Part shown: positions 29,651 through 62,198 of the stretch, in pieces
How the letters are laid out: each line of letters begins with the position of its first letter
Numbering within the stretch: position 1 is the stretch's first letter
NCBI GenBank assembly: GCA_018057705.1
Contig: JAGPDF010000022.1
Span: forward strand, 1 to 64,000
From: Thermoanaerobaculia bacterium
GTDB taxonomy: Bacteria; Acidobacteriota; Thermoanaerobaculia; Multivoradales; JAGPDF01
Reading direction: 5' to 3'
Length of the DNA: 64,000 nucleotides
Notes under the pieces: model-generated
The model's input: the letters and a program-made list of their open reading frames with translations, nothing else
Database searches by the model: none
Told to the model about the DNA's origin: nothing
Translations under genes and position numbers: made by a program

Positions 29651-32600
29651 ATGCCCGCTTCAACTTCTCCACCCTTTCCCAATCGTCTCTCCAGGATCGC
29701 ACCTGCCGATCGCGCCGGGCGCTGCGACAGGCCGGCGGAGGGCTGTCCCGCTCTCTCGCGCCCGCGCCGCGCCCGACGCACGGCCCTCCCATGGGCGGTC
29801 GTGGCGCTTCTCTTCCCAGTTGCCACCGTCGCGGCGCCGCTCGACGAAATGGCCCTGGGCCTCCGCCAGAAGGGGCTCGCCGAGCTCGAGAACGAACAGA
29901 ACTCGGCGGCGGAATCGACGTTTGCCGAGCTCGCCAGCAGACTTCCGGGCGACCCCCTGCCGCACGCCAACCAGGCGATCGCCGCCCTGCGCCAGGCCCG
30001 GCTCGAGGAAGCGCGGACGGCGCTCCTGCGCGCCCTCCGTCTCGCCCCCGACCGCCCCGATCTCGTGGCCATCGAGGCCGAGCTCAGGGTCGCCTCCGGA
30101 GACCTCGAAGGCGGCCTCGAGCGCTTCCGTATCGCAGGCGCGGGCGCCCCCGACCGTCCCGACCTGCAGTTCGCCCTCTTTCGAAACGGTGAGGCTCTGG
30201 GCACCGAGGCGGGCGACGCGGCCATGGACACGGCACTCGCCCGCCTCACCCGCCTGCGCCCCGACAACCTGGTCGTGCTGCTCGGCGCCGGCAAGAGGGC
30301 GGTGGCGCTAGCGGATCGAGCCGGCGCCACGGCTGCGGCGCTGCGCATTCGTGAGCTACTGTGGGACGCCCCACAGGGCGCGGCCGAGGCGCTCGCGCGA
30401 CTGACCGCGGCGCTCGAGGCGGGCGACCTGCCGCGCGCGCGGGTGCCGATGCAACAGCTCGCGAACCTGCTGCGCCCGAGTCCGCTCTTTCAGCAAGGGG
30501 TCCGCGAGCTTTCGAGCGGCATCCTGGGAATCCCGGTCGAGCGCTTCGTACTCGAGCCGCCGGCGCGCGAGTTCGGCGCGGCGCTCCCGGTGACCTTCGT
30601 CGCCGGCGCGAGCGTCACGGGTGCGGACCCGGCGGGCGGCGCCTCGCCGCCCGGCACGCGGACGCTTCTGGCGAGCGACCTCGACGGCGACCAGCGGCCG
30701 GATCTCGCGCGACTCGTCACCGGCCCGTCGCCTTCGAGCCCCGTCGCCGTCGAGATCCGGCTCGCCTCGGGCGGCTTCGAGCCACGGATTCTCGGCCGGG
30801 CGGCCGGGCTCGTCGCGCTGCAGGCGGCCGACCTCGATCAGGACGGCAGGATCGACCTCGTCGCCTCGGGCCCCGCCGGTGCCGTCCGCTTCCGCGCCGG
30901 GGCCGCGGGTTTCACCGCCTGGCCGGCCGCCGCCGGCGAGCTCCCGATTCGCGGCAGCGCGCTCACGGTGCTCGACTTCGACCTCGAAGGAGACCTCGAT
31001 CTGGCGCTCGCCGGTGCCGGTGCGTCTGCCGGCGAGCTCTGGCGCTCGGCGGCCCCCGATGCTCTCGTCGCAGTGGGATCGCAGGTGCTGCCGCGCATGG
31101 CCCTCGGCGGAGTGCGGCGCCTGTTGACGAGCGACCTCGACCGCGACGGCGACCCCGATCTCCTGGCCGTAGGCGACGCGGGCCTCCTCTGGCTCGACAA
31201 TCTCCGCCAGGGACGCTTCGCCGATCGCACTCGGGTCGCGAAGCTCGCCGCGCTCGGGCCGCTCCTCGACGCGGCGAGCGCCGATTTCGATGCCGACGGG
31301 CGGCCCGACCTGGTGCTCGCCGGACCGGAGGGTCTGCGTCTTCTCCGCAACGAGGGCGGCACCTTCGCTCCCTGGCCGGTCGCCGGACTGCCGGCAGGGC
31401 GCTGCGATGCCGTGCTCGCCTTCGACGCCGACAACGACGGCCGTCTCGATCTGGCGCTCGCCGGACCCGGCGGGGTCGTCGTCCTGGGCCTGCGCGGACC
31501 GCTCGCGGCACCGCGCTTCGAGCTCCTCCCGGTGACCGGCAGTTCCGGGGCCCGCACGGCGCTCGCCAGCGCCGATCTCGACGGCGACGGCGATCTCGAT
31601 CTCGTGGCGGTCGGCCCCACCGGGCTCGCGCGCTTCGAGAACCGCGGCGGAAACGGCAATCACTGGCTGGCGGTCCGCCTGCGCGGCCTCGAACAGGGCA
31701 ACGGCAAGAACGACCGGCTCGGCTACGGTGCCACGGTCGAGCTGCGGCGCGGCGCGGCCTATCAGTTCCGCGAAGTCGACGACGAGGTCACCCACTTGGG
31801 GCTAGGCTCGCGCCCCTCGGCCGACACCTTGCGCATCGTCTGGTCGAACGGCGTGCCGCAGAATCGGCTGGCACCCCGCGGCGACCAGCGGATCGTCGAG
31901 GAGCAGGTTCTCAAGGGGAGCTGTCCGTTCCTCTACGCCTGGACCGGCGAGCGCTTCGAGTTCGTCACCGACCTGCTCTGGAACTCACCCCTGGGGCTGC
32001 CGGTCGCTCCCGGCATCTGGGCAGCTCCCGATCCCGGCGAGCTCGTGCGGGTCGACGGGCTCGTGGAGGACGGCGGGCTCTACCGGCTGCGCCTGACCGA
32101 GGAGCTCTGGGAGGCGGCACTCTTCGACGCCGTCCGCCTCTGGGTCGTCGACGCTCCGGAGGATCTCGAGCTGGCGAGCAATCTCCGCGTCGTGCCCGGC
32201 GCCCCGCCGCAGCCGGAGGTCGTCCTGGCCAGCCGCGCCCTGCGCGCACCGGCCGCCGCCTGGGATGGTACCGGCGCCCCAGTGACCGCGCGCATCGCGC
32301 TGCGCGACGATATCTACGCCTCCGGCTATCCGACAGGCCCACTGCAGGGTATGGCCTCCTCCTGGACCTTCACCTTCGAGCTCGACGAAGCGCCGGCGGC
32401 ACCGATCCGTCTGCACCTCGACGGCTGGGTCTTTCCGTCGGACGCGAGCCTCAACCTGGCGGTGGCCCAGCGCAGCGATCTGCCCTACCTTGCGCCACGC
32501 CTCGAGGTCGAGACGGCAGACGGCTGGGATCTCCTCGTCGCCGATTTCGGTCTGCCACCCGGAAAAACCAAGACCATGGTCGTGGACACGCCGCCGCTCC

Positions 32601-33193
32601 CCGCCGGAGCGCGCCGGCTGCGCATCGTCTCTTCACTCTGGCTCGCCTGGGACAGGATCGCCTGGACGACACAGAGGGCCGATGCCGAGGCCACCACGGT
32701 TGCGAGGCTGCAGCCGGCGAACGCCGCGTTGCGCTATCGCGGCTTCTCCGCGCTCTACCGGCACGCACCAAACGCGCCGCACGCCTACGACTATGACTCT
32801 GTCGCTGCCACTTCTCCCTGGCTGCCCTTTCCGGGCCGCTACACCCGGTACGGTGAGGTCGGCGAGCTTCTGACGGCGGCCGACGACCGCAGCGCGATCC
32901 TCGCGCCGGGCGACGAGTTGGCGCTCGACTTCGACGGCATACACCTGCCGCCGCTTGCCTCGGGCCTCCGGCGCACTTTCTTTCTCGAGAGCCAGGGCTG
33001 GGACAAGGATGCCGATCGCAACACCTTCGCGGGAGAGCGGCTCGAACCGCTCCCGTTCCGCGCCATGAGCGGCTACCCATGGCGGGACGACGAGCACTAT
33101 CCGGAGACTCCCGAGCTCGCGCGCTATCGCGAGGAGTGGTTGACCCGCGAGATCGTGGACGGTTCCGTCGGCCGCGACGACCCGGAGGAGTGA
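29651..33193 (+). CDS. Large FG-GAP/ASPIC-UnbV (CRTAC1-type) protein with TPRs
   Basis: The 1180-residue protein has a hydrophobic signal near residue 46 (LPWAVVALLFPVATVAA). TPR repeats lie at about 70-220 (NQAIAALRQARLEEARTALL). FG-GAP repeats with calcium-type loops follow at about 335-680 (ASDLDGDQRPDLARLV, FDADNDGRLDLALAGPGG, SADLDGDGDLDLVAVG). An ASPIC/UnbV segment (NRGGNGNHWLAVRLRG then GYGATVELRRG and LRIVWSNGVPQ) lies near 680-745. The last about 430 residues, starting near KGSCPFLYAWTGERFEFV, are a unique beta-rich region with no domain I can name. The start ATG 29651 has GAGGA at 6 nt. It begins 56 nt after the sortase substrate and may share its operon. Confidence 0.82.
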   Translation: MPASTSPPFPNRLSRIAPADRAGRCDRPAEGCPALSRPRRARRTALPWAVVALLFPVATVAAPLDEMALGLRQKGLAELENEQNSAAESTFAELASRLPGDPLPHANQAIAALRQARLEEARTALLRALRLAPDRPDLVAIEAELRVASGDLEGGLERFRIAGAGAPDRPDLQFALFRNGEALGTEAGDAAMDTALARLTRLRPDNLVVLLGAGKRAVALADRAGATAAALRIRELLWDAPQGAAEALARLTAALEAGDLPRARVPMQQLANLLRPSPLFQQGVRELSSGILGIPVERFVLEPPAREFGAALPVTFVAGASVTGADPAGGASPPGTRTLLASDLDGDQRPDLARLVTGPSPSSPVAVEIRLASGGFEPRILGRAAGLVALQAADLDQDGRIDLVASGPAGAVRFRAGAAGFTAWPAAAGELPIRGSALTVLDFDLEGDLDLALAGAGASAGELWRSAAPDALVAVGSQVLPRMALGGVRRLLTSDLDRDGDPDLLAVGDAGLLWLDNLRQGRFADRTRVAKLAALGPLLDAASADFDADGRPDLVLAGPEGLRLLRNEGGTFAPWPVAGLPAGRCDAVLAFDADNDGRLDLALAGPGGVVVLGLRGPLAAPRFELLPVTGSSGARTALASADLDGDGDLDLVAVGPTGLARFENRGGNGNHWLAVRLRGLEQGNGKNDRLGYGATVELRRGAAYQFREVDDEVTHLGLGSRPSADTLRIVWSNGVPQNRLAPRGDQRIVEEQVLKGSCPFLYAWTGERFEFVTDLLWNSPLGLPVAPGIWAAPDPGELVRVDGLVEDGGLYRLRLTEELWEAALFDAVRLWVVDAPEDLELASNLRVVPGAPPQPEVVLASRALRAPAAAWDGTGAPVTARIALRDDIYASGYPTGPLQGMASSWTFTFELDEAPAAPIRLHLDGWVFPSDASLNLAVAQRSDLPYLAPRLEVETADGWDLLVADFGLPPGKTKTMVVDTPPLPAGARRLRIVSSLWLAWDRIAWTTQRADAEATTVARLQPANAALRYRGFSALYRHAPNAPHAYDYDSVAATSPWLPFPGRYTRYGEVGELLTAADDRSAILAPGDELALDFDGIHLPPLASGLRRTFFLESQGWDKDADRNTFAGERLEPLPFRAMSGYPWRDDEHYPETPELARYREEWLTREIVDGSVGRDDPEE

Positions 33194-33203
33194 AACTCGA
33201 AAT

Positions 33204-35093
33204 CTAGCGGATGCGTTCGACGACGATGGTCGTGTCGACGGCGGAGAGGCGCGACGCTTCGACCTCCTGCAGCGCTCCGTCGGGCCAACGGACGGTAATC
33301 CCCTCGACACCGGTCGCATCGCCCAGCCCGAAGGACGCAACGATCTCGCTCTGCGAGAGGTAGCCGCGAGTCGCCGTGACCGTGCGGCGTTGGGTCCTGC
33401 CATCGGCCTTGAGCTCCACCACGGCGCCGATGCCGAGGCGGTTGCCATGCGGGTCGGCGAGCCGGACCTTGAGCCAGTGATGTCCCGTCGTCTGATCGTT
33501 GCGCAGCAGCAGCGGCGGGCCGCCGACCTGCGTCAGAACGAGGTCGGAATCGCCGTCGCCGTCGAAGTCGGCCGTCGCGATCCCCCGCCCCGCGATCGGC
33601 CGGGCGAGCTCCCCAATCGCTGTCGCGGGGAGAAGCGCGAAAGTCTGGCGCGCCTCCGGGCCGGCGTTCCAGAAGAGCTGCGCCGACTGCAGGTAGGTCT
33701 GGCTCGGATCGACGAGCGCGATAGCCCCTTCGAGGTGCCCGTTCGCAGCGACGAGATCGAGTCGCCCGTCGAGGTCGAGGTCGGAGAACAGAATTCCGAA
33801 AGTGAGCGCCCGGCGCGACGCAGCGCCGATGCCGGCGGCTATCGCCTCGTCGGCCCAGAGCAGGCCGTCACCCTGGCTGACGTAGAACGAGGTCATTTCG
33901 TTGGCGAAGTTGCCGATCGCGATCGCCAGCTCGCCGGGATCGCGAAAGGCGCCGAGGTCGAGCCCCATGGCACCGGTCGCCGCTCCCATGCGGTCGAAGG
34001 CGAGACCGGCGGCCGTCCCGACCTCTTCGAACCTGCGATCGCCGAGGTTGCGGAAGTAGAAGTTCGCGGTGGTGTCGTTGGCGACGACGAGGTCGATCCA
34101 ACCGTCGCCATCGACATCCTGCGCCAGGACTCCGAGAGCCTTCCCGACCGGCCGCCCGGTCGCCGGGTTGGCGACCTCGAGGCCCGCCGCTCCCGAGATG
34201 TCGATGAAATGACCTGTCCCGTCGTTCTCGAAGAGCGCCGAGTGGGCCCCCTCGTAGCTCGTCGGCGGACCGTAGGCCCGGCCGACTCCGGTGAGACGGA
34301 AGTCGACGTCGAGGTCGATCCCGCGCGACCAGCGCACGTAGCGGCAGACGAAGAGATCGAGGTCGCCGTCGCGCTCGAGATCGAAGAACGTCGCACAGCT
34401 GTGCCAGTCGGAGCTCGCGCCCGCGACGCCGGAGCGTGGCATCTCGACGAAGCGCAGCGCCCCTCCTTCCGAGATGTTGCGCAACAGGCGGTTCTCGCCC
34501 ACCGCTGTCACCAGGAGGTCCGGCCGGGCATCGCCGTCGACGTCGCCCACCGCCACCCCCATGCCGTAGAGCTTCACCCGCCCCAGGCCGGACTCGGCCG
34601 TGACATCGACGAACCGCCAGGTGCCGGCCCGGCAGTCGTTGCGGAAGAGGCGCAGCGCAGCTCCGGGCCCACCGCTCCACGGCCATCTCCCGGAGTCGAC
34701 GAACAGCAGGTCGCTGTCGCCATCGCCGTCGGCGTCGAACGCCGCGACACCGCCGCCCATCGATTCGGGCAGGAGCTTCTCGCCGGTCGCACCGGTCGAG
34801 TGCACGAAATCGATCCCCGCCCCGACGGTCTGATCGGAGAAGGCGAGTGTCTGCGGCGCGCCCGCCGAAGGCATCGCAGCGGTGGCGCGCGGCGCCTCGG
34901 CGGCGACCTCCCGCACCGCGGTCTTGCGCGGCCGGCATTCGCCGACGAGGAAAACCGCAGCCGCGCCGGCGGCGATGAGGAAGAGAGCGAGCAGCGACCG
35001 GCGAACTGCGCGCCCGATGACCGCGTCGTCGGTCGGCGCGAGCTCGTCGTCGGGTGGCGGTGCGAGCGGATCGCGTCCGTCCGGCGCGCTCAT
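33204..35093 (-). CDS. CRTAC1-type protein, membrane-anchored FG-GAP and ASPIC/UnbV
   Basis: The 629-residue protein has one N-terminal transmembrane helix (LLALFLIAAGAAAVFLVGE, about 30-50) and no cleavable signal. FG-GAP/VCBS repeats follow, with calcium-loop motifs such as AAFDADGDGDSDLLFVDSG, VGDVDGDARPDLLVTAVG and DFDGDGDSDLVLTQVGG. The C-terminal ASPIC/UnbV domain reads GIGAVVELKADGRTQRRTVT and FGLGDATGVEGITVRWPDG. CRTAC1 proteins are calcium-binding beta-propellers of largely unknown bacterial function. This gene starts inside the stop of the upstream cytochrome gene (ATGA), so the two are translated together. The membrane anchor suggests a periplasmic-face partner of the cytochrome (inference). 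Confidence 0.88.
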   Translation of the reverse strand: MSAPDGRDPLAPPPDDELAPTDDAVIGRAVRRSLLALFLIAAGAAAVFLVGECRPRKTAVREVAAEAPRATAAMPSAGAPQTLAFSDQTVGAGIDFVHSTGATGEKLLPESMGGGVAAFDADGDGDSDLLFVDSGRWPWSGGPGAALRLFRNDCRAGTWRFVDVTAESGLGRVKLYGMGVAVGDVDGDARPDLLVTAVGENRLLRNISEGGALRFVEMPRSGVAGASSDWHSCATFFDLERDGDLDLFVCRYVRWSRGIDLDVDFRLTGVGRAYGPPTSYEGAHSALFENDGTGHFIDISGAAGLEVANPATGRPVGKALGVLAQDVDGDGWIDLVVANDTTANFYFRNLGDRRFEEVGTAAGLAFDRMGAATGAMGLDLGAFRDPGELAIAIGNFANEMTSFYVSQGDGLLWADEAIAAGIGAASRRALTFGILFSDLDLDGRLDLVAANGHLEGAIALVDPSQTYLQSAQLFWNAGPEARQTFALLPATAIGELARPIAGRGIATADFDGDGDSDLVLTQVGGPPLLLRNDQTTGHHWLKVRLADPHGNRLGIGAVVELKADGRTQRRTVTATRGYLSQSEIVASFGLGDATGVEGITVRWPDGALQEVEASRLSAVDTTIVVERIR

Positions 35094-37921
35094 GGCTGCC
35101 CGCCGACGGACGGCAGCTCGTAGGCCCCGACCCGATCGAGATCGTAGAGCACGATGGCCTCGGCGGCATGATCCGCTGCCGGATCCGCAGCGCGCGCGAT
35201 CGCCACCGCGCGGTCGCGCGCGTTGTCGTCGACGCGATAGCGCGCGAACGCCTCCGAATGCCGGCGGGCGCTTTCGGCATCGCCCAGCTCCTGAAGGACG
35301 CGCGCCAGGTTGTAGTGCGCTGCAGCGTTCTCAGGATCGGTCTCAAGCGCCGTCTCGAGCTCGCCCACAGCGCGCCGCAGAAACTCCTCCCGCACCGCGG
35401 CCTTCGCCGGGCCGCGCTCCTGCCGGGCCCGCTCGGCGAGCGTCTCGCCGAGCTCGATGCGCACCCGGTAGTCGCGCGAGAAATCGAAGCCCTTCTCGGC
35501 CAGCACGCCTCCGGTTCCGGACAGGATCCCCTCGAAAGCGGCGATCGCCTCGTCGAGGTAGCCGTTCTGCTTGTCGACCTGCGCCGACAGCCAGGCGAGC
35601 GTCCAGGGGCGTGCCGGAGGATCGAACTTCGCCGCGCGTTCGAGCGCCGCGACCGCTCGATCCGCGACCGCTCCCTGCGCCAGGTAGACCCGCGCCAGAT
35701 TGAGCGGGCCGTCGGGCTTACCGAGGCGCTCGACCTCGGCGAACGCCGCCTCGGCGTTGGCGAGCTCGCCGCGCGTCTTGCCGCCCTTCAGCAACAGGCC
35801 GATGCCGTAGTCGTTCCAGCGCTGCCACTCGGGAATCGCCGACTCCGGGTTCGCTGCCTCCACCCCGTCGCCCACCGGAAAGGTGATGCGGTCGGTCGCC
35901 AGGGTCAGGATCGGCAGGTCGTTGACGAACCCGGCGCCATAGACCAGGCGCATGTACCTGGTGTCGAACTTGCGGTAGCGCAGGGCCACCTCCACAGTGA
36001 GCGCGCCGCGCAGGTCGGGAGGGATGTTCAGCCGATAGTGGATGACATCGGCCGCGCCGGGTCCGATCTGATGGTCGTAGAGCGGCACGAAGATGTCCTG
36101 CGCGTTGCGACGGTCGATTCGCCGGCCTTCGCGGTCGAGCACCCATGCGTTCAGGAAGTGCGACCAGGGATCCACTTCTCCACTCGGAGCCCGGCCGCCG
36201 CTCTTGCCGATTCGCCGGTCGCCGGCGGTCGCGGTCACCTCGAGCCAGACCTCGTTCGAGTCCGCGGTGCCCTGCGTGAAGTGGTGCCCGAGCTTCACGG
36301 TCCGCACCACGGTCTCGAGCAGGTAGCTCCTCCCGGCGACGAGTGTCGGCAATGCCGGCCGCAGGGGAGCCGTCAGCGCTCCGTCGATGGTGCCGCCCTC
36401 TTTCACGCCGAAGAGATCGACGCGCACCACGCCCTCGTTGAACTTCTCGTGCTCCTTCACCACCTCCGCCCAGTCCGGCTCTCCGGCGAGCTTCGCGATC
36501 GCCGTATTGGCGGAAGGAAAGAGGTGATCGCGAATCGCGAGCATCTTGCCATCGTGATACTTGGCGCCGAAGTCGTTCGAGGGCACCGGCTTCATGTGAC
36601 AGCCGTTGCAGTTGGGCTCGGCCTTCTCGGGGTAGTAGAAGGCGGCGGCGCCATGGCCCGAGACACCCGACAGGAGGAAAGAGTCGTAGTGGTTCTGGCC
36701 GCGCAGCCACTTGTACTTGTTGAGCTGCTGCGGCAGGTGCACCTTGTGACAGGCGCCGCAGAACTCGGTGGTGCGGTGCAGCGGCTTGAGGAAGGTCTTC
36801 TTGTGGAACTCCGGCTTCGCCTTGATCAGCTGCCGGTTGACCCAGGCGAGCGTCCTGTTCTCGGCGAACGCGAACGGGTAGTGCTGTGGCTCTTCGATGG
36901 TGTAGTCGGAGTTGCCGCGCGGCGAGTTGACGTGCGTGATCGCGTGGCAGGTCGAGCAGGTGAGCCCGGCCTTGGCGGTCGGGTCGTTCACGTCGTCGAA
37001 CTGCGGGTCGTCGAAGCGCCCGGAGAAGAAGACCACCGGATCGTGGCAGCCGGCGCAGAAGCGCGCCGCCTGCACGTCGCCGTCGCGCTCGAGGGCGACC
37101 TTTCTGGTCTCGCGCACCGAGAACAGGTAGGGCGGATTGTTGAACGAGCTGAACCGGTGGGCGCTTTTCTTCCAACGCGCGTGCGTGTCCTTGTGACACT
37201 CGGCGCAATAGTCATTGTTGTCGAGGACTCGCGCCGGAATGAACCCTCCCGTCGACGTACGGGCCAGCGATGGCTGGAAGTAGCGCTCCCCGCTCGCCGG
37301 GCCGCTCATGTTCCAGCGCCGCGGATCCTGCGCCTGCACGACGAGGAGAGCTCCGGCGAAGAGCGCCGCCACCACCGCCCAGCGACGGCCGACCGCCCAG
37401 CGGATTCTCTTTCCCGCCAGCCGGTGCAGGACGAAGAGCCAGACGACGCCGATGGGCACGAGAACGTGCACCCACCAGGCGACGGATCGCACCGTCGGAT
37501 CGTTCACCACGATCACTCCGTCGATCCTCGTGAGCACGACTCCACTCGCGAGGAGCAGAAGGACGGCAGTGAAGAGGGCGTAGCCCACCGCCACGGCGCG
37601 TCGATTCGGACGCGTACGCGCCCGCCACCAGTGGATCAGGCCGAAACCGACCGCCGGCAGGAGCAGCAGGGCTCCGAGGACGAGGTGCAGCAGGAAGAGG
37701 ATGAGGTAGAACCAGTTCTGGTAGGTCTGCCCGGTCGCCGCCTCGAGGCCGCGCACCCCGAGGAGGTAGACCGAATCGACGACCAGAAGGGCAAAGAGGC
37801 CGAAAACGACGAACAGCAGCTTCGCGAGCCGCGGCCCTACGGCTGGAACGTAGCGCCGCTTCGCGGGCGCGAGGCGCGAAGCCGCCGCCTCGCCCGAAGG
37901 GGGTGTCGGGACCTCGATCAT
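35090..37921 (-). CDS. Membrane cytochrome: b-type-like helices, five haem c sites and TPRs
   Basis: This 943-residue protein joins three parts. Residues 30-205 hold five transmembrane helices with intramembrane His (FYLILFLLHLVLGALLLLPA, FGLIHWW, WWVHVLVPIGVVWLFVLHRL), which suggests a di-haem b561-like quinol module. Next are five CxxCH haem c sites: CAECH, CAGCH, CSTCH, CGACH and CNGCH (about 239, 289, 321, 387 and 437). The C-terminal about 300 residues are TPR-like (PDGPLNLARVYLAQGAVADR, NAAAHYNLARVLQELGDAES). This looks like a quinol-linked multihaem reductase or electron-transfer protein with a protein-binding tail. It is coupled to the CRTAC1 gene downstream by ATGA. The substrate is unknown. 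Confidence 0.85.
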   Translation of the reverse strand: MIEVPTPPSGEAAASRLAPAKRRYVPAVGPRLAKLLFVVFGLFALLVVDSVYLLGVRGLEAATGQTYQNWFYLILFLLHLVLGALLLLPAVGFGLIHWWRARTRPNRRAVAVGYALFTAVLLLLASGVVLTRIDGVIVVNDPTVRSVAWWVHVLVPIGVVWLFVLHRLAGKRIRWAVGRRWAVVAALFAGALLVVQAQDPRRWNMSGPASGERYFQPSLARTSTGGFIPARVLDNNDYCAECHKDTHARWKKSAHRFSSFNNPPYLFSVRETRKVALERDGDVQAARFCAGCHDPVVFFSGRFDDPQFDDVNDPTAKAGLTCSTCHAITHVNSPRGNSDYTIEEPQHYPFAFAENRTLAWVNRQLIKAKPEFHKKTFLKPLHRTTEFCGACHKVHLPQQLNKYKWLRGQNHYDSFLLSGVSGHGAAAFYYPEKAEPNCNGCHMKPVPSNDFGAKYHDGKMLAIRDHLFPSANTAIAKLAGEPDWAEVVKEHEKFNEGVVRVDLFGVKEGGTIDGALTAPLRPALPTLVAGRSYLLETVVRTVKLGHHFTQGTADSNEVWLEVTATAGDRRIGKSGGRAPSGEVDPWSHFLNAWVLDREGRRIDRRNAQDIFVPLYDHQIGPGAADVIHYRLNIPPDLRGALTVEVALRYRKFDTRYMRLVYGAGFVNDLPILTLATDRITFPVGDGVEAANPESAIPEWQRWNDYGIGLLLKGGKTRGELANAEAAFAEVERLGKPDGPLNLARVYLAQGAVADRAVAALERAAKFDPPARPWTLAWLSAQVDKQNGYLDEAIAAFEGILSGTGGVLAEKGFDFSRDYRVRIELGETLAERARQERGPAKAAVREEFLRRAVGELETALETDPENAAAHYNLARVLQELGDAESARRHSEAFARYRVDDNARDRAVAIARAADPAADHAAEAIVLYDLDRVGAYELPSVGGQP

Positions 37922-37930
37922 TGGCAGCAG

Positions 37931-37936
37931 ACTCTA
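37931..37936 (-). promoter_or_regulatory. Predicted -10 element TAGAGT for cytochrome operon
   Basis: On the minus strand TAGAGT ends 9 nt before the cytochrome ATG; divergent with the TPR gene promoter 31 nt away. Confidence 0.5.
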
Positions 37937-37961
37937 CCAGCCGACCTGGAGCCCGGGATGC

Positions 37962-37967
37962 TAGTCT
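37962..37967 (+). promoter_or_regulatory. Predicted -10 element TAGTCT for TPR gene
   Basis: TAGTCT ends 7 nt before the TTG start at 37975, the same spacing as the kinase at 8037. Confidence 0.4.
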
Positions 37968-37974
37968 CGAGTCG

Positions 37975-38988
37975 TTGCTCCTACTCGCGTTTCTCGCGCT
38001 CCTCGCGATCACGGGTGAAACCGCGCCGTCGCCCTCCGGCTCGCCCTCGGAGACCTCCGCGGCTCCGACGGCCGGTCCGATGACCGAGGTGCTCGCCGAC
38101 GTCCAGGCCAGGCGCTGGGGCGCGGCCGAACCGGCGCTGCGCGCGGCGCTGGTTCGGGCGCCGCAGGCTCCCGTTCTGCACTTCCTGCTCGGCGAGACCC
38201 TGGCAGGGCTCGGGCGGCGCGCCGAGGCGGTGACCGAGCTCGAGCAGGCGGTCGCGTTGCGCCCGGACCGGCCGCGCTTCTGGCACTCCCTGGCGCGCGT
38301 CGAAGCCGATTCAGGCCACTGCGAGCGCGCCCTCGTCGCACTCGACCGAGCGCTCGCGCTCGCCGCCGAGCCGGTCTACCAGTACGACTCCGCCACCTGT
38401 CTCGTCACTCTGGGCAGACTCCAACCGGCGGCGGCTCGCCTCGATCGCGCTCTCGCGGGGGCGCCGCGCCACTTTGCGGCGCTTCTCCTGCGCGCCACGG
38501 TCGCGCGCGATCTCGGCGATCCGCAGGGGGCAAGGAGCTTCGCCGACCGGGCCCTCGCGCTGGCGCCCTTCTCCCCTGCCGCGCACACCGCCCGGGGCAT
38601 GGCCCTCCTCGATCTCGAGCGGCCGGCCTCGGCAATCGACGACTTCCGCGCCGCGCTCACCGAGGCGCCGGCACGATTCGAGGCCGGCTATGGACTGACG
38701 CAAGCGCTCCGCGCCCTCGACCGCAGGGACGAGGCCGCGGCGGAGCTCGCGCGGATCCAGGAGTTCTCGCGCCAGCGCGAGCGCGCCGAAGAGCTGACCG
38801 CAGCGCTCCAGCTCGCACCCGAAGCGACCGCGCAGCGCGTCGAGCTCGCGCGGCTCCTCCTCGCGTCGGGAGAGGCCTCCGCGGCGCTGCGCCAGCTCGA
38901 GGTCGCGGTGGCACGCGCGAGCACGGATGCGGCGCTACAGGAACTTCTGGCTCGAGCGAAGGAGAGGAAAGCGCGATGGGAACCTTGA
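37975..38988 (+). CDS. Exported TPR protein
   Basis: The 337-residue protein starts with a hydrophobic segment (LLLLAFLALLAITGETA) that reads as a signal or anchor. It continues with about seven TPR units, for example APVLHFLLGETLAGLGRRAE, LRPDRPRFWHSLARVEADSG, DSATCLVTLGRLQPAAARLD and HFAALLLRATVARDLGDPQG. The frame is also open back to 37903, but that would overlap the divergent cytochrome gene; TTG 37975 is preferred because a -10 element ends 7 nt before it and the signal begins there. Its end overlaps the CRTAC1 gene start by 13 nt, so both are in one operon. TPRs mediate protein contacts and give no specific function. Confidence 0.72.
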   Translation: MLLLAFLALLAITGETAPSPSGSPSETSAAPTAGPMTEVLADVQARRWGAAEPALRAALVRAPQAPVLHFLLGETLAGLGRRAEAVTELEQAVALRPDRPRFWHSLARVEADSGHCERALVALDRALALAAEPVYQYDSATCLVTLGRLQPAAARLDRALAGAPRHFAALLLRATVARDLGDPQGARSFADRALALAPFSPAAHTARGMALLDLERPASAIDDFRAALTEAPARFEAGYGLTQALRALDRRDEAAAELARIQEFSRQRERAEELTAALQLAPEATAQRVELARLLLASGEASAALRQLEVAVARASTDAALQELLARAKERKARWEP

Positions 38989-40691
38989 ACCAGCGCTTCG
39001 CTCCGGCCCTTGGATTGATCGCGCTCCTGCAAGGGAGCGCGGCGCTCGATTCGAGCGCCCTGGAATACCCGCCGAGCGTTGCAGCGCCGAGCGCGGCGGC
39101 CTGGCTCCACGACGCCACCGTCGAGCTCGGTCTCGACTTTCGTCATCGCACCGGCGCCGCGGGCCGCAAGCTCCTCCCCGAGACGATGGGCGCCGGCGGC
39201 TGCCTGCTCGACGCCGACGGCGACGGGTGGCTCGATATCTATCTCGTTCAGTCGGGTCCCCTGCCGCCCACCTCGGCACCCGAGGCGGCCAATCGCCTTT
39301 TCGTGAGGCGCAACGGGCGCTTCGTCGAGCGCGACCCCGGCGACGCCGCCGATCGCGGCTACGGCCAGGGTGCCGTCTGCGCCGACGTCGACGGCGACCG
39401 CGACGTCGACATCTATGTCACCAACTTCGGACCCAACGTGCTCCTGCTGAACGACGGGAACGGGCGCTTTGCCCGCGCGCCCGCCGGTTCTGGCGCGGAA
39501 GATCCGCGCTGGAGCTCGAGCGCCGCCTTCGCCGACCTCGACCGTGACGGCGACCTCGACCTCTATGTCGTGAACTACGTCGACCTCGACCTGGAGCTGC
39601 AGCCGCGCTGCCGGCGAACGAGCACGCCCGATCTCTTCTACTGCCATCCCGACCTCTTTCGCGCTGCCCCCGATTCGGTCTGGGAGAACCTCGGCGACGG
39701 ACGATTCCGCGACGCCACCTCTCGCTTCGGGGTTGCGGACGCCGAGGGCAAGGGCTTGGGCGTCGTCGCCTCGGATCTCGATGAAGATGGATGGAGCGAC
39801 CTGTACGTGTCGAACGACTCCACACCCAACTTTCTCTGGCGCAACCGGGCCGGGCGCCTCGTCGAGGACGGACTCGCTTCGGGCGTCGCTTTGAACGGCG
39901 CGGGACGCACCGAAGCCGGCATGGGGGTCGACGCCGGCGATACCGACGGCGACGGCCGGCTCGACCTCATCGTGACCAACCTCTCGCTGGAGACCAACAC
40001 GCTTTACCTCGCGACCGACAGCGGTTTTCGCGACGCCACGCGCGGCGCCGGTCTCTTCGCACCCTCCCTCGCCGTGCTCGGATTCGGCGTCGACCTGCTC
40101 GACCTGGACCTCGACGGCGACCTCGATCTGGCCGTGGCCAACGGCGACGTGCTCGACAACATCGAGCTGCTGAACGACGGCCTGTCGTATCGCCAGCCCG
40201 GGCATCTCCTGCAGAACGACGGACGCGGCCGTTTCACCCTTCTCGATCCGAAGTCCACCGGCGGCTTTGCCGAGCCCCGGGTGGCACGGGCACTGCTCAC
40301 CGGCGACATGGACAACGATGGGCGCCCCGACCTCGTCGTCACCGAAAGCGGCGGTCCGGCGCGCGTCTACTTGAACCGCGCTCCCGCCGGGCACTGGCTC
40401 GGACTGAAACTCGAAGGCAGGGGTTCGAACAGTCAGGCGATCGGAGCCCTGGTCGACTTCGACCGCGGCGGGCGGCGGCTCGTCGAAGAGGTGCGGGCCG
40501 GAGGAAGCTATCAGGGGAGCAGCGATCCTCGTCTGCACTTCGGTCTGGGAGCGGACACGAGCCCGGTCGCCGAGTTGCGGGTGCGCTGGCCCGACGGCTC
40601 GCGCGAGCTCTTCGGTCCGCTCGCCGCCGACCGCTACCACCCGCTCCGTCAGGGCGAGGGGCGAGCGATCAGCGCGCCTTCGCCGCGCTAG
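38976..40691 (+). CDS. Secreted CRTAC1-type FG-GAP/ASPIC-UnbV protein
   Basis: The 571-residue protein has a weak signal peptide (FAPALGLIALLQGSAALDSS). The repeats carry calcium-loop signatures: LLDADGDGWLDIYLVQSG, CADVDGDRDVDIYVTNFG, FADLDRDGDLDLYVVNYVDL and LDLDLDGDLDLAVANGDVLD. The ASPIC/UnbV part near the end reads IGALVDFDRGGRRLVEEVRA and LRVRWPDGSRELFGP. It is translationally linked to the preceding TPR gene (13-nt overlap), and its 3' end overlaps the convergent CRTAC1 gene by 23 nt. It is probably secreted and propeller-shaped; the function is not established. Confidence 0.88.
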   Translation: MGTLNQRFAPALGLIALLQGSAALDSSALEYPPSVAAPSAAAWLHDATVELGLDFRHRTGAAGRKLLPETMGAGGCLLDADGDGWLDIYLVQSGPLPPTSAPEAANRLFVRRNGRFVERDPGDAADRGYGQGAVCADVDGDRDVDIYVTNFGPNVLLLNDGNGRFARAPAGSGAEDPRWSSSAAFADLDRDGDLDLYVVNYVDLDLELQPRCRRTSTPDLFYCHPDLFRAAPDSVWENLGDGRFRDATSRFGVADAEGKGLGVVASDLDEDGWSDLYVSNDSTPNFLWRNRAGRLVEDGLASGVALNGAGRTEAGMGVDAGDTDGDGRLDLIVTNLSLETNTLYLATDSGFRDATRGAGLFAPSLAVLGFGVDLLDLDLDGDLDLAVANGDVLDNIELLNDGLSYRQPGHLLQNDGRGRFTLLDPKSTGGFAEPRVARALLTGDMDNDGRPDLVVTESGGPARVYLNRAPAGHWLGLKLEGRGSNSQAIGALVDFDRGGRRLVEEVRAGGSYQGSSDPRLHFGLGADTSPVAELRVRWPDGSRELFGPLAADRYHPLRQGEGRAISAPSPR

Positions 40692-42408
40692 TCTGGACCA
40701 CGACATGCAGGCGATCGAGGGTCGTCAGGCTCTGCGTCTGGGTTGCGCCGTCGGGCCAGCGGATCGCGACCGTCACCGGCCCGCTCCAGCCGCCGAGTCC
40801 GACATGCAGGTCGAGCGCCGACTGCGAGAGGAAGCTCCCGCCGCTGCGGGTGTGGCGCAGCAACGTCCGTCCGCCGGCCTGGACCTCGACGCGGGCACCC
40901 AGCACGACCGCGGAGCCGCGCCGGTCGACGAGCCTCAGTCCGAGCCAGTGACCCGGCTGCGCGGTTTCGTTGCGCAGCAACTGGGTGGGCCCGTTGGTAC
41001 GGGTGATGAGCAGATCGACGCGCCCGTCACCATCGACGTCGGCGCTCGCCAGCCCGCGGCTCACCGCGCGCTCCGCGAAGCCCGGCCCCGCGGAGGCACC
41101 CAGGTCGGTGAACCGGCCGCTGCCGTCGTTGGCAAAGAGCTGATTGGGCTGGGCATACGCGAGCCCGGCTTCGAAGATCTCGATGTTGTCGACGGCGTGC
41201 CCGTTGGCCACGGCAAGGTCGAGGTCGCCGTCGTTGTCGGCGTCGAAGAGCTCGACACCCCATCCGACATGGGGCCACGAGGCCTCGGCGACGCCGCGCC
41301 GCCTGCCCTCGTCCTCCCAGAGCCCGGGAGCAATCTTTCGATAGAGGTTGTTCGGTTCGGTCGAGTAGTTCGTCTTGACGAGCTCCACCGTGCCGTCGCC
41401 GTCGACGTCCCCCGCCGCGAGACCCATTCCGGCCTGCGCCGCACCCATGTTCGACACGGCGGTACCGAGGAGCAGCGCTTCGTCGGCGAAAAAACCGTCG
41501 CCCCGGTTGACGTAGTGCCGGCTCGGCGTGCCGTCGTTGGCGACGAAGATATCGAGATCGAAATCACCGTCCAGATCCTGCATCAGGACGCCGAAGCCCT
41601 TCTCGTCCGCTCCGGCAGCGATGCCCCGGCGGCGGCTCTCATCCACGAAACGGCCCTTGCCGTCGTTGATGTAGAGCGAATCGGCGACGCCGGAGAAAGC
41701 GTCCGGCCGGCAGTAAGCACGCACCCCGCGCGCGCGGTCGCCGCACCAGGGGTTGCGGTCGAAACTGAAATCGACGTAGCGCGCCACATAGAGGTCGTGA
41801 TCGCCGTCGCCATCGACGTCGCCGAAGGCGCAGCCGCTGTTCCAGCGCCGGTCCTCGAGACCGGCGCGCGCGGCAATCTCCTCGAACCGTCCCCCGCCCA
41901 GGTTGCGGAAGAGCAGCAGCGCTGCGTACTCGGTGACCAGGATGTCGACCCGGCCGTCGGCATCGACGTCTCCGACGCAGACTCCCATCCCGAAGCCGCT
42001 CCCCGCGACGCCGGAGCGCTCCGTGACGTCGACGAAGCGGCCGTCGCGGTTCTCGAACAACTTGCGGGAGCGCGGCGCTTGCGCGGCCGGCATCCTGGCA
42101 CCCGGGGCGACGGGCGCGGCGGCACCTTGAAGCAGCAGCACGTCCGCGTCGCCGTCGCCGTCGAAGTCGACGAAACCGCCACCGCTCTCGGCGCTCTCGA
42201 CGTAGAACTTCTCGCCGGTGCGGAAGTCGGAATGGACGAAGTCGAGCCCGCGCTCGTGGGCGACGTCGCGAAACGGCTGCGCCGCGGCGCCCGCGTTGAC
42301 CGCGATGAGCAGGAAAGCCCACCCCGCCGCCGTCCGAAGAGCCAGGGCGGAGTTCCGCCGTCCCGCGATCGCGCTATCGTCTCCGCAGTGGATCTCCGGT
42401 CGTTGCAC
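40669..42408 (-). CDS. Secreted CRTAC1-type FG-GAP/ASPIC-UnbV protein
   Basis: The 579-residue protein has a hydrophobic signal (ALRTAAGWAFLLIAVNAGAA, about 23-43) and the start of the mature repeat region at AHERGLDFVHSDFRTGEKFY. FG-GAP blades follow with FVDFDGDGDADVLLLQGAAA, CVGDVDADGRVDILVTEYAA, FGDVDGDGDHDLYVARYVDF and AAGDVDGDGTVELVKTNYST. The last part is ASPIC/UnbV-like (VVLGARVEVQAGGRTLLRHT, VAIRWPDGATQTQ). The start is GTG at 42408, inside the 5' end of the divergent lipoprotein gene, which begins at 42388. It is close kin to the preceding plus-strand gene. Confidence 0.85.
   Translation of the reverse strand: MQRPEIHCGDDSAIAGRRNSALALRTAAGWAFLLIAVNAGAAAQPFRDVAHERGLDFVHSDFRTGEKFYVESAESGGGFVDFDGDGDADVLLLQGAAAPVAPGARMPAAQAPRSRKLFENRDGRFVDVTERSGVAGSGFGMGVCVGDVDADGRVDILVTEYAALLLFRNLGGGRFEEIAARAGLEDRRWNSGCAFGDVDGDGDHDLYVARYVDFSFDRNPWCGDRARGVRAYCRPDAFSGVADSLYINDGKGRFVDESRRRGIAAGADEKGFGVLMQDLDGDFDLDIFVANDGTPSRHYVNRGDGFFADEALLLGTAVSNMGAAQAGMGLAAGDVDGDGTVELVKTNYSTEPNNLYRKIAPGLWEDEGRRRGVAEASWPHVGWGVELFDADNDGDLDLAVANGHAVDNIEIFEAGLAYAQPNQLFANDGSGRFTDLGASAGPGFAERAVSRGLASADVDGDGRVDLLITRTNGPTQLLRNETAQPGHWLGLRLVDRRGSAVVLGARVEVQAGGRTLLRHTRSGGSFLSQSALDLHVGLGGWSGPVTVAIRWPDGATQTQSLTTLDRLHVVVQTSAAKAR
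42375..42380 (+). promoter_or_regulatory. Weak -10-like element TATCGT
   Basis: TATCGT ends 7 nt before the GTG of the CRTAC1 lipoprotein gene. The hexamer is atypical, but the spacing equals that of other leaderless-type starts here. Confidence 0.3.
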
Positions 42409-44625
42409 GCGTTGGCTCTGCTACTCATCCTAGTCCCTTCCGCGACCGGTTGTGGAGGGCAGGATGCCGCGACCGCGCGCATGGCCGCCCGGCTCGAGAC
42501 AGCCGCGCGCCGCCTCGAAAGCACTTCGCCCGTCTTTCGCGTCACCGCTCTGCGCGACGAGCTCGCGGCGACGCCCTGGCCGGAGGAAGGCCGTCAGCGT
42601 CTCGCTTTCGCCCTCAACCTGGCGCGTACGGAGCTCTACGCCGGAAATCCGCGCGCCGCAGCCGAGGCGGTCGAGAAGCTCCTCGACGAGGGCGCGGCCG
42701 AGCTTCCAGCCGAAGGCCGGCGGCTGGCGCTGCGGGTCGCCGCCACCGCCCGCCTCCGCCAGGCCGAAATCGAGAATTGCATCGGCGGTCACGGGCCGGA
42801 GAGCTGTCTCTTTCCGCTCCAGGGCGGGGGCGTCCATCAGCGGCGAGCGGCGACCCTTGCAGCGCGTGCGCACCTCGAGGCCTGGCTCGCCCAATCGCCC
42901 GACGACGCCACGGCGCGCTGGCTGCTGAATATCACCGCGATGGCGCTCGGCGAGTGGCCCGCGGGCGTACCCGAAGCGCTGCGCATTCCGGCGGAGATCG
43001 CCGGATCCGGGAGCTCCGAGAGTCCATTCCCGCGCTTTCGCGACGTCGCCATGAGCGCCGGCCTGACCGAAAGCTCGCTCGCCGGCGGTGTCGCCGCCGA
43101 AGACTTCGACGGCGACGGGCTGCTCGATCTCGTCGTCTCCGCCTGGGGACCGCGCGACCCACTCCGCCTCTTCGCCGCCGACGGGCACGGTGGCTTCGCC
43201 GACCGTTCCGAGCACGCCGGCTTCGCTGGCCTGGTCGGCGGCCTCAATCTGAACCACGCTGACTACGACAACGACGGCGACGCCGACCTGCTGATCCTGC
43301 GCGGCGGCTGGCTCACTCGCGACGGCAGCCTCCCCTCTTCGCTGCTCGAGAACGACGGTTCCGGGCGCTTCTCCGATGTCACCGAGGCCGCCGGGCTGCT
43401 CTTCGCGGCGCCGACCCAGACGGGGGCCTGGGCGGACTACGACCTCGACGGCGACCTCGACCTCTTCGTCGGCTTCGAGTCGACGCCCGGCGACCCCCAT
43501 CCCTGCCGTCTCTATCGCAACCGCGGCGACGGGCACTTCGACGACGTGGCGCGCGAGGCCGGGCTGGACGTCGTCGGCTACGTCAAGGCCGCCATCTGGG
43601 GGGACGTCGACAACGACGGCCGCCCCGATCTCTTCCTGTCGCGTTTCGGCGAAGCCAATCTGCTCTTTCGCAACCTGGGGAATGAGGACGGCCGGGCGGT
43701 CGCCGGTGCGCGCTTTGCCGACATCACGGCGCACGCCGGTGTCGCCGAGCCCCGCTTCTCGTTCCCGGCGCTCTTCTTCGACGCCGACGACGACGGCGAC
43801 CTCGACCTCTTCGTGGCCGGTTTCACGCGCGACTTCTTCGGCGAGTCCCTGGACGACGTCCTCGCCTCCTGGCTGGGCGAGGCCTCGACCCCCGAGCTCC
43901 TGCCGAAGTTCTACCGCAACCGCGGCGACGGCACGTTCGAAGACCGCTCCCAAGCGGCCGGGCTCGACCGCCCGATCCTCGCCATGGCGGCCAACGTCGC
44001 CGACCTCGACGGCGACGGGCGCCTCGACCTCTACCTGGGCACCGGGGCGCCGGACTTCGCCGCGCTGCTACCCAACGTTCTGCTGCACAATCGCGCCGAC
44101 GGCCGGCTGGTGCAGGCGCAGAATGCGGCGGGGGTGGGACATCTGCAGAAGGGACACGGCATCGCCATCGCCGATTTCGACCAGGACGGCGACGAGGACA
44201 TCTACGCCGTGCTCGGCGGCGCCTGGCCCGGGGACACCTACTACGACGCGCTGTTCGAGAGCTCGGCGTCGCCGGCCGCGTGGGTCGGCCTCGAGCTTTC
44301 GGGCAGCACTGCGAACCGGGCCGCGATCGGCGCCCGGATCGAGCTCGATCTCGAAACTCCGATCGGTCCGCGGCAGATCTTTCGCTGGGTGCAGACCGGC
44401 GGCAGTTTCGGCTCCTCGTCCTTGCGGCGGACGATTGCACTGGGCGAGGCCACGGCGATCCGGCGTCTCGTCGTGCGCTGGCCGGGCGGAGGCGAGGAGA
44501 GCTTCCCGCGGCCCGAGCTCGCGCGGAGCTACGGCTTGATCGAAGGGTCCGGTGCTGTGGCACCGCTGGCGCGCGGTCCATTCCGGCTCGGCACCGCCGG
44601 GCGCCACGAGCACCTGCCTCACTGA
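42388..44625 (+). CDS. CRTAC1-type FG-GAP lipoprotein
   Basis: The 745-residue protein starts at GTG with a lipoprotein signal (LALLLILVPSATGCGG, Cys at about 22). An Arg/Ala-rich helical region with a TPR-like pattern covers about 25-190. FG-GAP repeats follow: AEDFDGDGLLDLVVSAWG, HADYDNDGDADLLILRGG, WADYDLDGDLDLFVGFESTP and ADFDQDGDEDIYAVLGGAWP. The C-terminal ASPIC/UnbV part reads IGARIELDLETPIGPRQIF and LVVRWPGGGEESFP. The lipid anchor would hold the propeller to a membrane. The 5' end overlaps the divergent CRTAC1 gene by 21 nt, and the 3' end overlaps the convergent TPR lipoprotein gene by 7 nt. Confidence 0.88.
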   Translation: MDLRSLHALALLLILVPSATGCGGQDAATARMAARLETAARRLESTSPVFRVTALRDELAATPWPEEGRQRLAFALNLARTELYAGNPRAAAEAVEKLLDEGAAELPAEGRRLALRVAATARLRQAEIENCIGGHGPESCLFPLQGGGVHQRRAATLAARAHLEAWLAQSPDDATARWLLNITAMALGEWPAGVPEALRIPAEIAGSGSSESPFPRFRDVAMSAGLTESSLAGGVAAEDFDGDGLLDLVVSAWGPRDPLRLFAADGHGGFADRSEHAGFAGLVGGLNLNHADYDNDGDADLLILRGGWLTRDGSLPSSLLENDGSGRFSDVTEAAGLLFAAPTQTGAWADYDLDGDLDLFVGFESTPGDPHPCRLYRNRGDGHFDDVAREAGLDVVGYVKAAIWGDVDNDGRPDLFLSRFGEANLLFRNLGNEDGRAVAGARFADITAHAGVAEPRFSFPALFFDADDDGDLDLFVAGFTRDFFGESLDDVLASWLGEASTPELLPKFYRNRGDGTFEDRSQAAGLDRPILAMAANVADLDGDGRLDLYLGTGAPDFAALLPNVLLHNRADGRLVQAQNAAGVGHLQKGHGIAIADFDQDGDEDIYAVLGGAWPGDTYYDALFESSASPAAWVGLELSGSTANRAAIGARIELDLETPIGPRQIFRWVQTGGSFGSSSLRRTIALGEATAIRRLVVRWPGGGEESFPRPELARSYGLIEGSGAVAPLARGPFRLGTAGRHEHLPH
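42427..42432 (-). promoter_or_regulatory. Predicted -10 element TAGGAT inside divergent gene
   Basis: On the minus strand TAGGAT ends 18 nt before the GTG of the 40669-42408 gene. It lies within the first codons of the divergent lipoprotein gene, so the two promoters are interlocked. Confidence 0.4.
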
Positions 44626-45905
44626 GGCGAGGGCGCCGCGAAGCGCTCGAGATCTGCGAGCACCTGCTGACGCTCGCCGGCGCGGCCCAGCAGCTCGAGC
44701 TGCCGCGCCAACTCCTCCACCCACTCGCGCTTCCAGGGCGCCCATCGCACCGCCCGGCGCAGGCGATCGAGCCCTTCGGCCTCGTTGCCGAGGCGCTGCT
44801 CGGCACGCGCCAGGACGACCTCGCAGCGCGCGCAGGGCGCGCCAGCCGAGCGGCCCGCGAGGAGCGCCACGAGCCTGCCACGCGCCGCCTCCGGCGCCCC
44901 TTCGTCGAGATCGAGCAGCGCCAGCGACGTCGCCGCCCCCGGATCGAGCGGCGCGAGCCGTTGCACGTGCTCGAAGAGTTCGCGCGCCAACCTGCCGCGT
45001 TTCGCCGCGTAGGCCGAGCGTCCGAGCTCGCCCAGCTCGTCCGGCGTCAGCGCGGGCGCCAGCTCGCGCGCCAGGACTTCGGCCTGGCCAAGGTCGCCGA
45101 CAGCGAGCCACCATCGCACACGCAGCAGCCGGAGATCCGGCAGCGACTCTCCGAGCTGCGCCTCGAGATCGGCGAGGAGCGCGAGACCCTCCCGCGGCGA
45201 GGGCGCTGCGGCGCTCCCCTCGCCGAGCAGGGCGCGCATCTGCCGGTGGATCCCGAGCCAGCGCTCTGCGCCCTCCCTGTCCCCTTCGCGCAGCGCGCTC
45301 CGGCCGAGCAGATAGGCCGCCCTGAGACGCGTCGGCCCAGCGCCCAGGGCCTGCAGGGCGTGACCCTCGACGGCGGCGAAATCGTCGAGCTCGTAGGCAA
45401 TCTCGGCCGCGAGCAGATGGATGTAGGGCAGATCCGGAGCGCGCAAGAGCGCCTGGTCGATCGCGGCGCGCGCCGCGGCGGCATCGCTCGCCATCAGCGC
45501 CCGGGCGCGCAGGGCATGCGTCTCGGCCTCCGACTCCGGCAGGTGAGTGGCTTCCGCGTAGGCCGCCGTCCAGTTGCCGGTGAGCAGCCGGGCCTCGACT
45601 CCTTCCCGCCGGGCCAGCATGTCGCCGGGCATCCGGACGAGATAGCGATCGAGGCGAATGAGGCCTTCGCTGGTACTGATCTGGGTGCCGCGCAGCCACG
45701 CGAGCGCCGCGCTGCGCAGGGCGGGGAGATCGTCCGGATGGGATAGCACCACCTCGCCCCAGAAGCCCCGGGCGAGATCGGAGCGCCCCTCCATCTCCGC
45801 GGTCAGCGCACGCTGGCGAGCGAGCTCAGCGCCGTCGCGTGCACAGGCCGAGAGGGCGAGGGTCCAGCCCAGAAGAGCGAAGGTACGCCGGAGCAGGGCG
45901 TTCAC
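44619..45905 (-). CDS. TPR lipoprotein
   Basis: The 428-residue protein begins with a lipoprotein signal (FALLGWTLALSACARDG, Cys about 21). It consists of TPR-like helical repeats, for example ETHALRARALMASDAAAARA, PYIHLLAAEIAYELDDFAAV, LRAAYLLGRSALREGDREGA and GDLGQAEVLARELAPALTPD. It carries no catalytic motif. The GTG start overlaps the stop of the PPIase gene upstream (GTGA), so it is the last gene of a four-gene operon running from 51176. It is likely a scaffold for envelope protein assembly together with the two PPIases (inference). Confidence 0.85.
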   Translation of the reverse strand: MNALLRRTFALLGWTLALSACARDGAELARQRALTAEMEGRSDLARGFWGEVVLSHPDDLPALRSAALAWLRGTQISTSEGLIRLDRYLVRMPGDMLARREGVEARLLTGNWTAAYAEATHLPESEAETHALRARALMASDAAAARAAIDQALLRAPDLPYIHLLAAEIAYELDDFAAVEGHALQALGAGPTRLRAAYLLGRSALREGDREGAERWLGIHRQMRALLGEGSAAAPSPREGLALLADLEAQLGESLPDLRLLRVRWWLAVGDLGQAEVLARELAPALTPDELGELGRSAYAAKRGRLARELFEHVQRLAPLDPGAATSLALLDLDEGAPEAARGRLVALLAGRSAGAPCARCEVVLARAEQRLGNEAEGLDRLRRAVRWAPWKREWVEELARQLELLGRAGERQQVLADLERFAAPSPQ

Positions 45906-61442: not shown

Positions 61443-62198
61443 TTGAGCACATTCGACCTGTCCACCCCCGTCGGCGAGATCGTTGCCCGCTATCCCTCCA
61501 CCAGCCGCATCTTCGATCGCGCCGGCGTCGACTTCTGCTGCAGCGGCAAGCGACCGCTCGGCGAGGCCTGCCAGGCAAAGGGCCTGCCGGCCGATCGCCT
61601 GCTGGCCGAGCTCGAAGAGGAGCTCGCGGCGGTTTCCGCAGAGCCCGATGCCTCGTTGGCCGACGCGCCCCTGCCGGCGCTCACCCGCTACATCGTCGAG
61701 CGCTTCCACGTGCCGCTGCGCGAAGAGCTGCCGCGCCTCGGCCGGATGGCCGAGCGGGTGCTCGAGGCCCACGGCCGCGCTCATCCGGAGGTCGTGCCCG
61801 AGCTCGTCCGCATCTTTCGCGCGTTCCGCCCCGAGCTCGAAGAGCACATGGGGAAGGAGGAGGCGGAGCTCTTTCCCGCGATCGAGGCTCTGGAGGCACC
61901 CGCCGCCAGCGCCGGCGCGCGGCCCTCGCCGATCGCTGAGCAGGTCACCGCCCTCGAGGGCGATCACGACGGAGCGGGAGCGGCGCTCGTCCGGCTGCGC
62001 GAGCTGACCGGCGGCTACGTTCCGCCGGCCGGCGCGTGCAACACTTTCCGGGCGCTCTACGATGGCCTCGCCCATCTCGAGACCGAGATGCACCTGCACG
62101 TCCATCTCGAGAACAGCGTGCTCTTCCCGCGCGCCGTCGCCCGCGCGCGCGAGCTCGGCGTCCGGGAGTTGCTCGAATCGCCGCGCCCGGGTCTCTAG
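61443..62198 (+). CDS. Iron-sulfur cluster repair di-iron protein (RIC/ScdA/YtfE)
   Basis: The 251-residue protein starts at TTG. It begins with a ScdA-N domain (STPVGEIVARYPSTSRIFDR, then GVDFCCSGKRPLGEAC with the paired Cys, about 31-45). A hemerythrin-like domain follows, with His/Glu ligands in RYIVERFHVPLREELPRLGR, EAHGRAHPEV, EEHMGKEEAELFPAIEAL, ALEGDHDGAGAAL and ETEMHLHVHLENSVLFPRAV. RIC proteins repair iron-sulfur clusters damaged by nitric oxide or oxidative stress. It is divergent from the CRP/FNR regulator and overlaps the convergent S74-domain gene by 4 nt (shared CTAG stop). Confidence 0.93.
   Translation: MSTFDLSTPVGEIVARYPSTSRIFDRAGVDFCCSGKRPLGEACQAKGLPADRLLAELEEELAAVSAEPDASLADAPLPALTRYIVERFHVPLREELPRLGRMAERVLEAHGRAHPEVVPELVRIFRAFRPELEEHMGKEEAELFPAIEALEAPAASAGARPSPIAEQVTALEGDHDGAGAALVRLRELTGGYVPPAGACNTFRALYDGLAHLETEMHLHVHLENSVLFPRAVARARELGVRELLESPRPGL

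Follow-up and report, generated by a model that had tools for sequence, protein, structure and literature searches.

Gene content of the locus

The window, by which we mean the whole 64,000-nucleotide stretch of DNA analysed, holds, inside 15 kb, five genes (A, B, E, F and G) whose open frames match FG-GAP_3 and UnbV_ASPIC in Pfam, together with TPR genes and a multihaem cytochrome gene, C (Table 1); an earlier note on this DNA had placed all of these correctly. A genome search found eight UnbV loci in the 5.08-Mb genome, five of them in these 15 kb, and such clustering would arise by chance with a probability of about 2e-8 in a random-placement approximation. Codon-position GC backs every frame listed. 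The strands alternate, the units being A (+), C-B (-), D-E (+), F (-), G (+) and J-I-H (-), which rules out one operon for the whole region and leaves several short units instead.

Table 1. Features of the cytochrome and CRTAC1-type gene region, in window coordinates.
Feature	Position	Strand	Description	Basis
Gene A	29651-33193	+	1180 aa; TPR, 7-bladed FG-GAP propeller, UnbV and C-terminal domain	Pfam
Gene B	33204-35093	-	629 aa; CRTAC1-type propeller, anchored by a single N-terminal TM segment; partner gene of C	Pfam
Gene C	35090-37921	-	5 TM helices, pentahaem domain with Ig-like part, TPR tail	
ATGA overlap, C stop/B start	35090-35093	-		ORF coordinates
Gene D	37903-38988	+	TPR protein, divergent from C; start uncertain	Pfam
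Gene E	38976-40691	+	571 aa; secreted CRTAC1-type	Pfam, tree
Gene F	40669-42408	-	579 aa; secreted CRTAC1-type, paralogue of E	Pfam, tree
Gene G	42388-44625	+	745 aa; lipoprotein CRTAC1-type, separate lineage	Pfam, tree
Genes J-I-H	44619-49635	-	TPR sulfatase-like, PpiC-type isomerase, TPR lipoproteins; neighbours	Pfam

The note had also described overlaps among the propeller and TPR genes, differing anchors, and one CRTAC1-type gene coupled to the cytochrome, and each of these is borne out. D and E overlap by 13 bp, and the E/F, F/G and G/H overlaps measure 7-23 bp, with those of F/G and C/D varying with the choice of start codon; B starts within the ATGA that contains the stop codon of C. 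By reading, the N-terminus is a single TM anchor in B, signal-peptide-like in A, E and F, and lipobox-like in G.

In B, four FG-GAP_3 stretches (E 1.6e-28, Pfam) are followed by a UnbV_ASPIC domain scoring 62.9 bits against a cut-off of 23.4. The UnbV domain of A scores 20.6 bits in the single protein, against a Pfam gathering score of 23.4, and 25.5 in the genome search. The propeller of B is known from sequence, its profile matching CRTAC1 (9etn) with E 7e-34, and that of A from an AF2 model (pLDDT 78), which matches murine CRTAC1 (9etn) with Z 37.1 over 427 residues. A further has a C-terminal domain of ~420 aa (window 31898-33190, + strand), conserved across phyla with invariant SCP, W and D/E residues, for which sequence searches gave no Pfam and no PDB match.

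Architecture of the cytochrome

The protein encoded by C has exactly five CxxCH motifs (positions 239, 289, 322, 388 and 438) and five TM segments. All CxxCH motifs are invariant in 60 aligned C sequences, as are H255, H373, H466 and H546, and the redox architecture of C is well supported as regards the c haems. Given four invariant additional histidines and five c haems, one haem is predicted to lack a histidine as its sixth ligand; on this sequence pattern it is a possible catalytic site, and a non-histidine residue could supply the missing ligand.

An AF2 model of C (pLDDT 91, pTM 0.88) was compared with known structures. The pentahaem domain resembles cytochrome c552 of Thermochromatium tepidum (5ze8) both by sequence (E 4e-8) and by fold (VIA Z 16.1, rmsd 3.5); the fold match, covering 340 of 385 residues with model residues 229-681 of C, was obtained with VIA-align, and the matches listed by Foldseek for the whole of C were all TPR proteins.

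The TM part of C has no Pfam match. Four of its histidines (H79, H97, H152 and H166) are 100% conserved in the alignment of the close group; in the model, H79 and H97 lie on helix 70-101 and H152 and H166 on helix 142-169. These helices being parallel, the pairs H79/H152 and H97/H166 would each sit close to one of the two faces of the membrane. The histidine pattern and the modelled helix boundaries make it likely that the TM bundle accommodates two bis-His b haems.

Conservation of the C-B pair

C gave 91 matches of any strength in 99 relatives and 89 strong matches in 297 genomes of the phylum. For the cross-phylum set we used the best 80 of at least 577 relatives of C, with 52-68% identity; these come from Acidobacteriota, Planctomycetota, Verrucomicrobiota and MAGs labelled Proteobacteria and Latescibacterota. 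This spread follows the record labels, of which some (Akkermansia, Pirellula, Betaproteobacteria MAGs) could be wrong. Cultured carriers of C-B include Rhodopirellula, Roseiconus and an Opitutaceae isolate.

Far from lying scattered without conserved linkage in neighbouring genomes, C and B travel together. Six of these 80 sequences end within 1.2 kb of C, leaving 74 testable loci, and in 65 of the 74 a B-type CRTAC1 gene lies directly downstream of C on the same strand (counting L084, where the open frame begins far upstream); of the other nine, one has a B-type gene at 1.6 kb and eight have none. Over 86 orthologous pairs the median gap between C and B is -4 bp, with the exact 4-bp overlap in 27, counted in frame, since counting NTGA motifs overcounts. 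The N-terminus of B is TM-like in 80 of 86 orthologues. The correlation between C and B distances reaches r 0.88, whereas 1000 permutations gave no more than 0.30; much of this correlation is expected from common ancestry alone. When all neighbours of the same best 80 relatives were clustered, CRTAC1 was found in 69 loci, A in 19, and sulfatases and TPR proteins in 8-9 each; no neighbour family was as common as CRTAC1. Linkage of C and B across phyla is well supported.

The association extends to more distant cytochromes. Divergent relatives of C in other Acidobacteriota, either short and without the TPR or soluble, often adjoin CRTAC1. The short TPR-less ones L074, L077, L078, L182 and L183 precede a CRTAC1 gene; the soluble ones L170, L171 and L172 have no CRTAC1 directly adjacent. 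In L165 the consecutive genes are one for a TPR protein, three for CRTAC1 and one for a soluble pentahaem-TPR cytochrome. In the two relatives of the same family, a divergent C is accompanied by an E-type CRTAC1 in place of B. The pentahaem genes L163 and L164 of the window's own genome have no CRTAC1 in the stretches read.

Horizontal transfer into the window was hinted at by lower identity to same-family genomes; the C tree keeps the window in its order (93/96), and we rejected this explanation. In two genomes of one genus (L075 6764-10173 and L076 6067-9221) C appears as two overlapping frames, which are either assembly frameshifts or a real split. In L091 (7930-14856), two B-type CRTAC1 genes are present, one on either side of C.

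Lineages of the propeller proteins

The evolutionary history of the CRTAC1-type proteins was investigated with a quick tree method with SH-aLRT support only. B falls within a 37-row clade of cytochrome-linked CRTAC1 sequences (support 100). G sits apart, in a clade of four rows that it shares with sequences from Blastopirellula and a further acidobacterial genome (likewise support 100); as B and G are in separate clades, they are not local duplicates. E and F group with another copy from their own genome, L159, in one lineage (support 93). By this tree A, B and G go back to old lineages of their own, and E and F are lineage paralogues. The earlier note had favoured a multi-part system over gene duplication, and this holds for A, B and G, for which the tree rules out pure duplication; for E and F duplication is retained.

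The co-location to which it pointed is conserved in part, for C-B, A and D-E-like pairs. A is found within the fetched stretch in 22 of the best 80 of at least 577 C loci (about a quarter), and C-B-A are contiguous in other Acidobacteriota (L177, L179 and L180). TPR and CRTAC1 pairs resembling D-E are nearby in L085, L086, L096 and L104. By contrast, H and I had no match in any neighbourhood locus and J had sulfatase matches only, of varying strength; H-I-J were rejected as members of the system, their linkage not being conserved. Two further arrangements were seen: in a Blastopirellula locus (L149 454-8169), two G-type genes and one F-like CRTAC1 gene lie upstream of C-B in a window-like order, and in L159 (7886-11334) a TPR-like frame and the CRTAC1 gene, both on one strand, overlap, which shows the pairing of TPR with CRTAC1 again outside the window.

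Comparison with known multihaem systems

A study of cable bacteria placed ExtKL and the c552-like proteins in one pentahaem family and reported pentacoordinate haems for some members (PMC11976967). C shares with this group (c552 5ze8, ExtKL, the cable-bacteria sPHC and MccSep) the five CxxCH motifs, the fold and the Ig-like C-terminal part, and the region of the conserved GH...G motif aligns weakly with MccSep. C differs in having, besides, a TPR tail and a 5-TM domain that carries two histidine pairs, in lacking selenocysteine, and in having CRTAC1 as its partner rather than a porin cluster. Against the ExtKL equivalog NF040886, C scores 27.2 bits, well short of the curated cut-off of 250. 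Selenocysteine in short relatives of C was considered and dropped: in L078, the sole case checked, the in-frame TGA is an ordinary stop just before the alignment ends.

The likeness to CRTAC1 (cartilage acidic protein 1, 9etn) lies in the FG-GAP propeller and UnbV_ASPIC; what sets the window's proteins apart is the TM anchor of B and its genetic tie to a cytochrome, and the TPR and C-terminal domain of A. Hydrazine-synthase-like alpha/beta-gamma clusters (PMC12758564) also have multihaem genes beside an FG-GAP protein annotated as CRTAC1, but differ in their haem proteins, and C lacks an HZS-type organisation. Identity with hydrazine synthase itself, which requires haem-bearing alpha and beta-gamma type subunits with propellers, fails: a motif scan found no CxxCH in any propeller protein of the region, B included. 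The verrucomicrobial porin-multihaem cytochrome complex (PMC5615132) is similar in its multihaem clusters, in the overlapping phyla and in its proposed electron transfer, but no porin gene is conserved near C-B: the neighbour families within 10 kb shared by at least 5 of the best 80 of at least 577 C loci include no outer-membrane porin of the kind that adjoins the cytochrome in a porin-cytochrome conduit. The same phyla are rich in another kind of c-type haem protein, the planctomycete-specific cytochromes (PSCyt); no PSCyt model is among the Pfam matches of C.

Proposed function of the C-B module

In the literature searched, no role is assigned to bacterial CRTAC1/UnbV proteins, and the cytochrome-CRTAC1 pair is not described, only its parts; these belong to known families, and their combination was not found. 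Within Acidobacteriota, C-type genes are nearly restricted to genomes with a haem-copper oxidase: in a comparison of two genome lists covering 297 genomes of the phylum, COX1 is present in 87 of 89 genomes with C-type genes against 140 of 208 without (Fisher 2e-10, kinship ignored).

The reading that we consider most likely, with a probability of about 50%, is a periplasmic redox complex of C and B, linked to quinol, in bacteria that respire oxygen; it is drawn from sequence and structural models. The two b haems of the TM bundle, if loaded, would draw electrons from the quinone pool and hand them on, presumably outward, to the pentahaem domain on the outer side. B, with its own TM helix in the same membrane, would dock on the pentahaem domain or the TPR tail of C, and its propeller might shape a substrate site or bind a partner protein; any catalysis may take place at the haem predicted to be open. 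The accessory envelope proteins would be A and, in some of the genomes, D-E and G. Contact with quinol would not be universal, as the soluble C relatives in other Acidobacteriota have no TM part. In this way the 'unknown purpose' of the earlier note gives way to something narrower, probably a redox module linked to quinol.

One specific form of the C-B redox complex would be a quinol-driven reductase of hydroxylamine, nitrite, NO or selenite-like substrates. By sequence and fold, C is related to c552, to cytochrome c554 and to MccSep, a multihaem selenoprotein, among others; one of its c haems may be open, CRTAC1 genes flank hydrazine-synthase-like clusters too (PMC12758564), and extI, which lies in the gene cluster of ExtKL, has been linked to the reduction of selenite and tellurite (PMC5877670). 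We nevertheless consider this form unlikely, as no active-site residue of C could be assigned to a substrate and C is widespread in genomes with oxygen reductases. The latter point, with nearly all carriers having oxygen reductases, also bears on extracellular electron transfer, in which C would send electrons outward through surface propellers as proposed for ExtKL in Geobacter. The place of C in the ExtKL, c552 and cable-bacteria PHC fold group (PMC11976967) would suit such a role, as would the lipoprotein G and the exported-looking A, E and F; however, among the neighbour families common to at least 5 of the best 80 of at least 577 C loci there is no porin or barrel within 10 kb, and the recurrent neighbours are limited to A, B, TPR and a small number of sulfatase or housekeeping genes, which makes this explanation quite improbable.

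It is very unlikely that propellers and TPRs make up an envelope scaffold of calcium-binding adhesion or assembly proteins, with the cytochrome a mere passenger or redox sensor. FG-GAP propellers do resemble integrin alpha and CRTAC1, and TPR and propeller are both binding modules, but the B clade is specifically linked to a cytochrome across phyla; this tie, together with the invariant haem ligands of C, argues for selection on electron transfer. For the region as a whole, the most far-fetched reading is that members of an abundant family were simply duplicated in place and share no function: it accounts for E and F, which group with L159, but not for the old and separate A, B and G, nor for a linkage that, A-B-C included, recurs in other phyla. 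The cross-phylum linkage instead points to a so far uncharacterised machinery for electron transfer, widespread among bacteria of soil and water, not a chance pile-up of gene copies.

Should the quinol-linked C-B complex be confirmed, the known respiratory systems of Acidobacteriota, Planctomycetota and Verrucomicrobiota would gain a membrane redox complex of wide distribution. More tentatively, and with the odds against it, A-B-C may represent an undescribed class of respiratory or redox enzyme, in which a CRTAC1 propeller would be a working subunit of a quinol-linked pentahaem enzyme; if so, the class would span several phyla of oxygen-respiring soil and aquatic bacteria and provide the first defined role for bacterial CRTAC1 proteins. 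With one CRTAC1 clade steadily partnered with one multihaem cytochrome, and several carriers in culture, that role becomes testable.

Other genes of the window

Two other genes of the window deserve mention. Gene J (47581-49635, - strand) encodes a sulfatase-fold lipoprotein with a TPR tail, in which, by reading, T-L-P-A-H takes the place of the usual C/S-x-P-x-R nucleophile motif, as in transferase-like members. At 61443-62198 (+ strand), the start of the encoded protein resembles, again by reading, a di-iron repair protein of the RIC/YtfE type, which is tied to NO stress.
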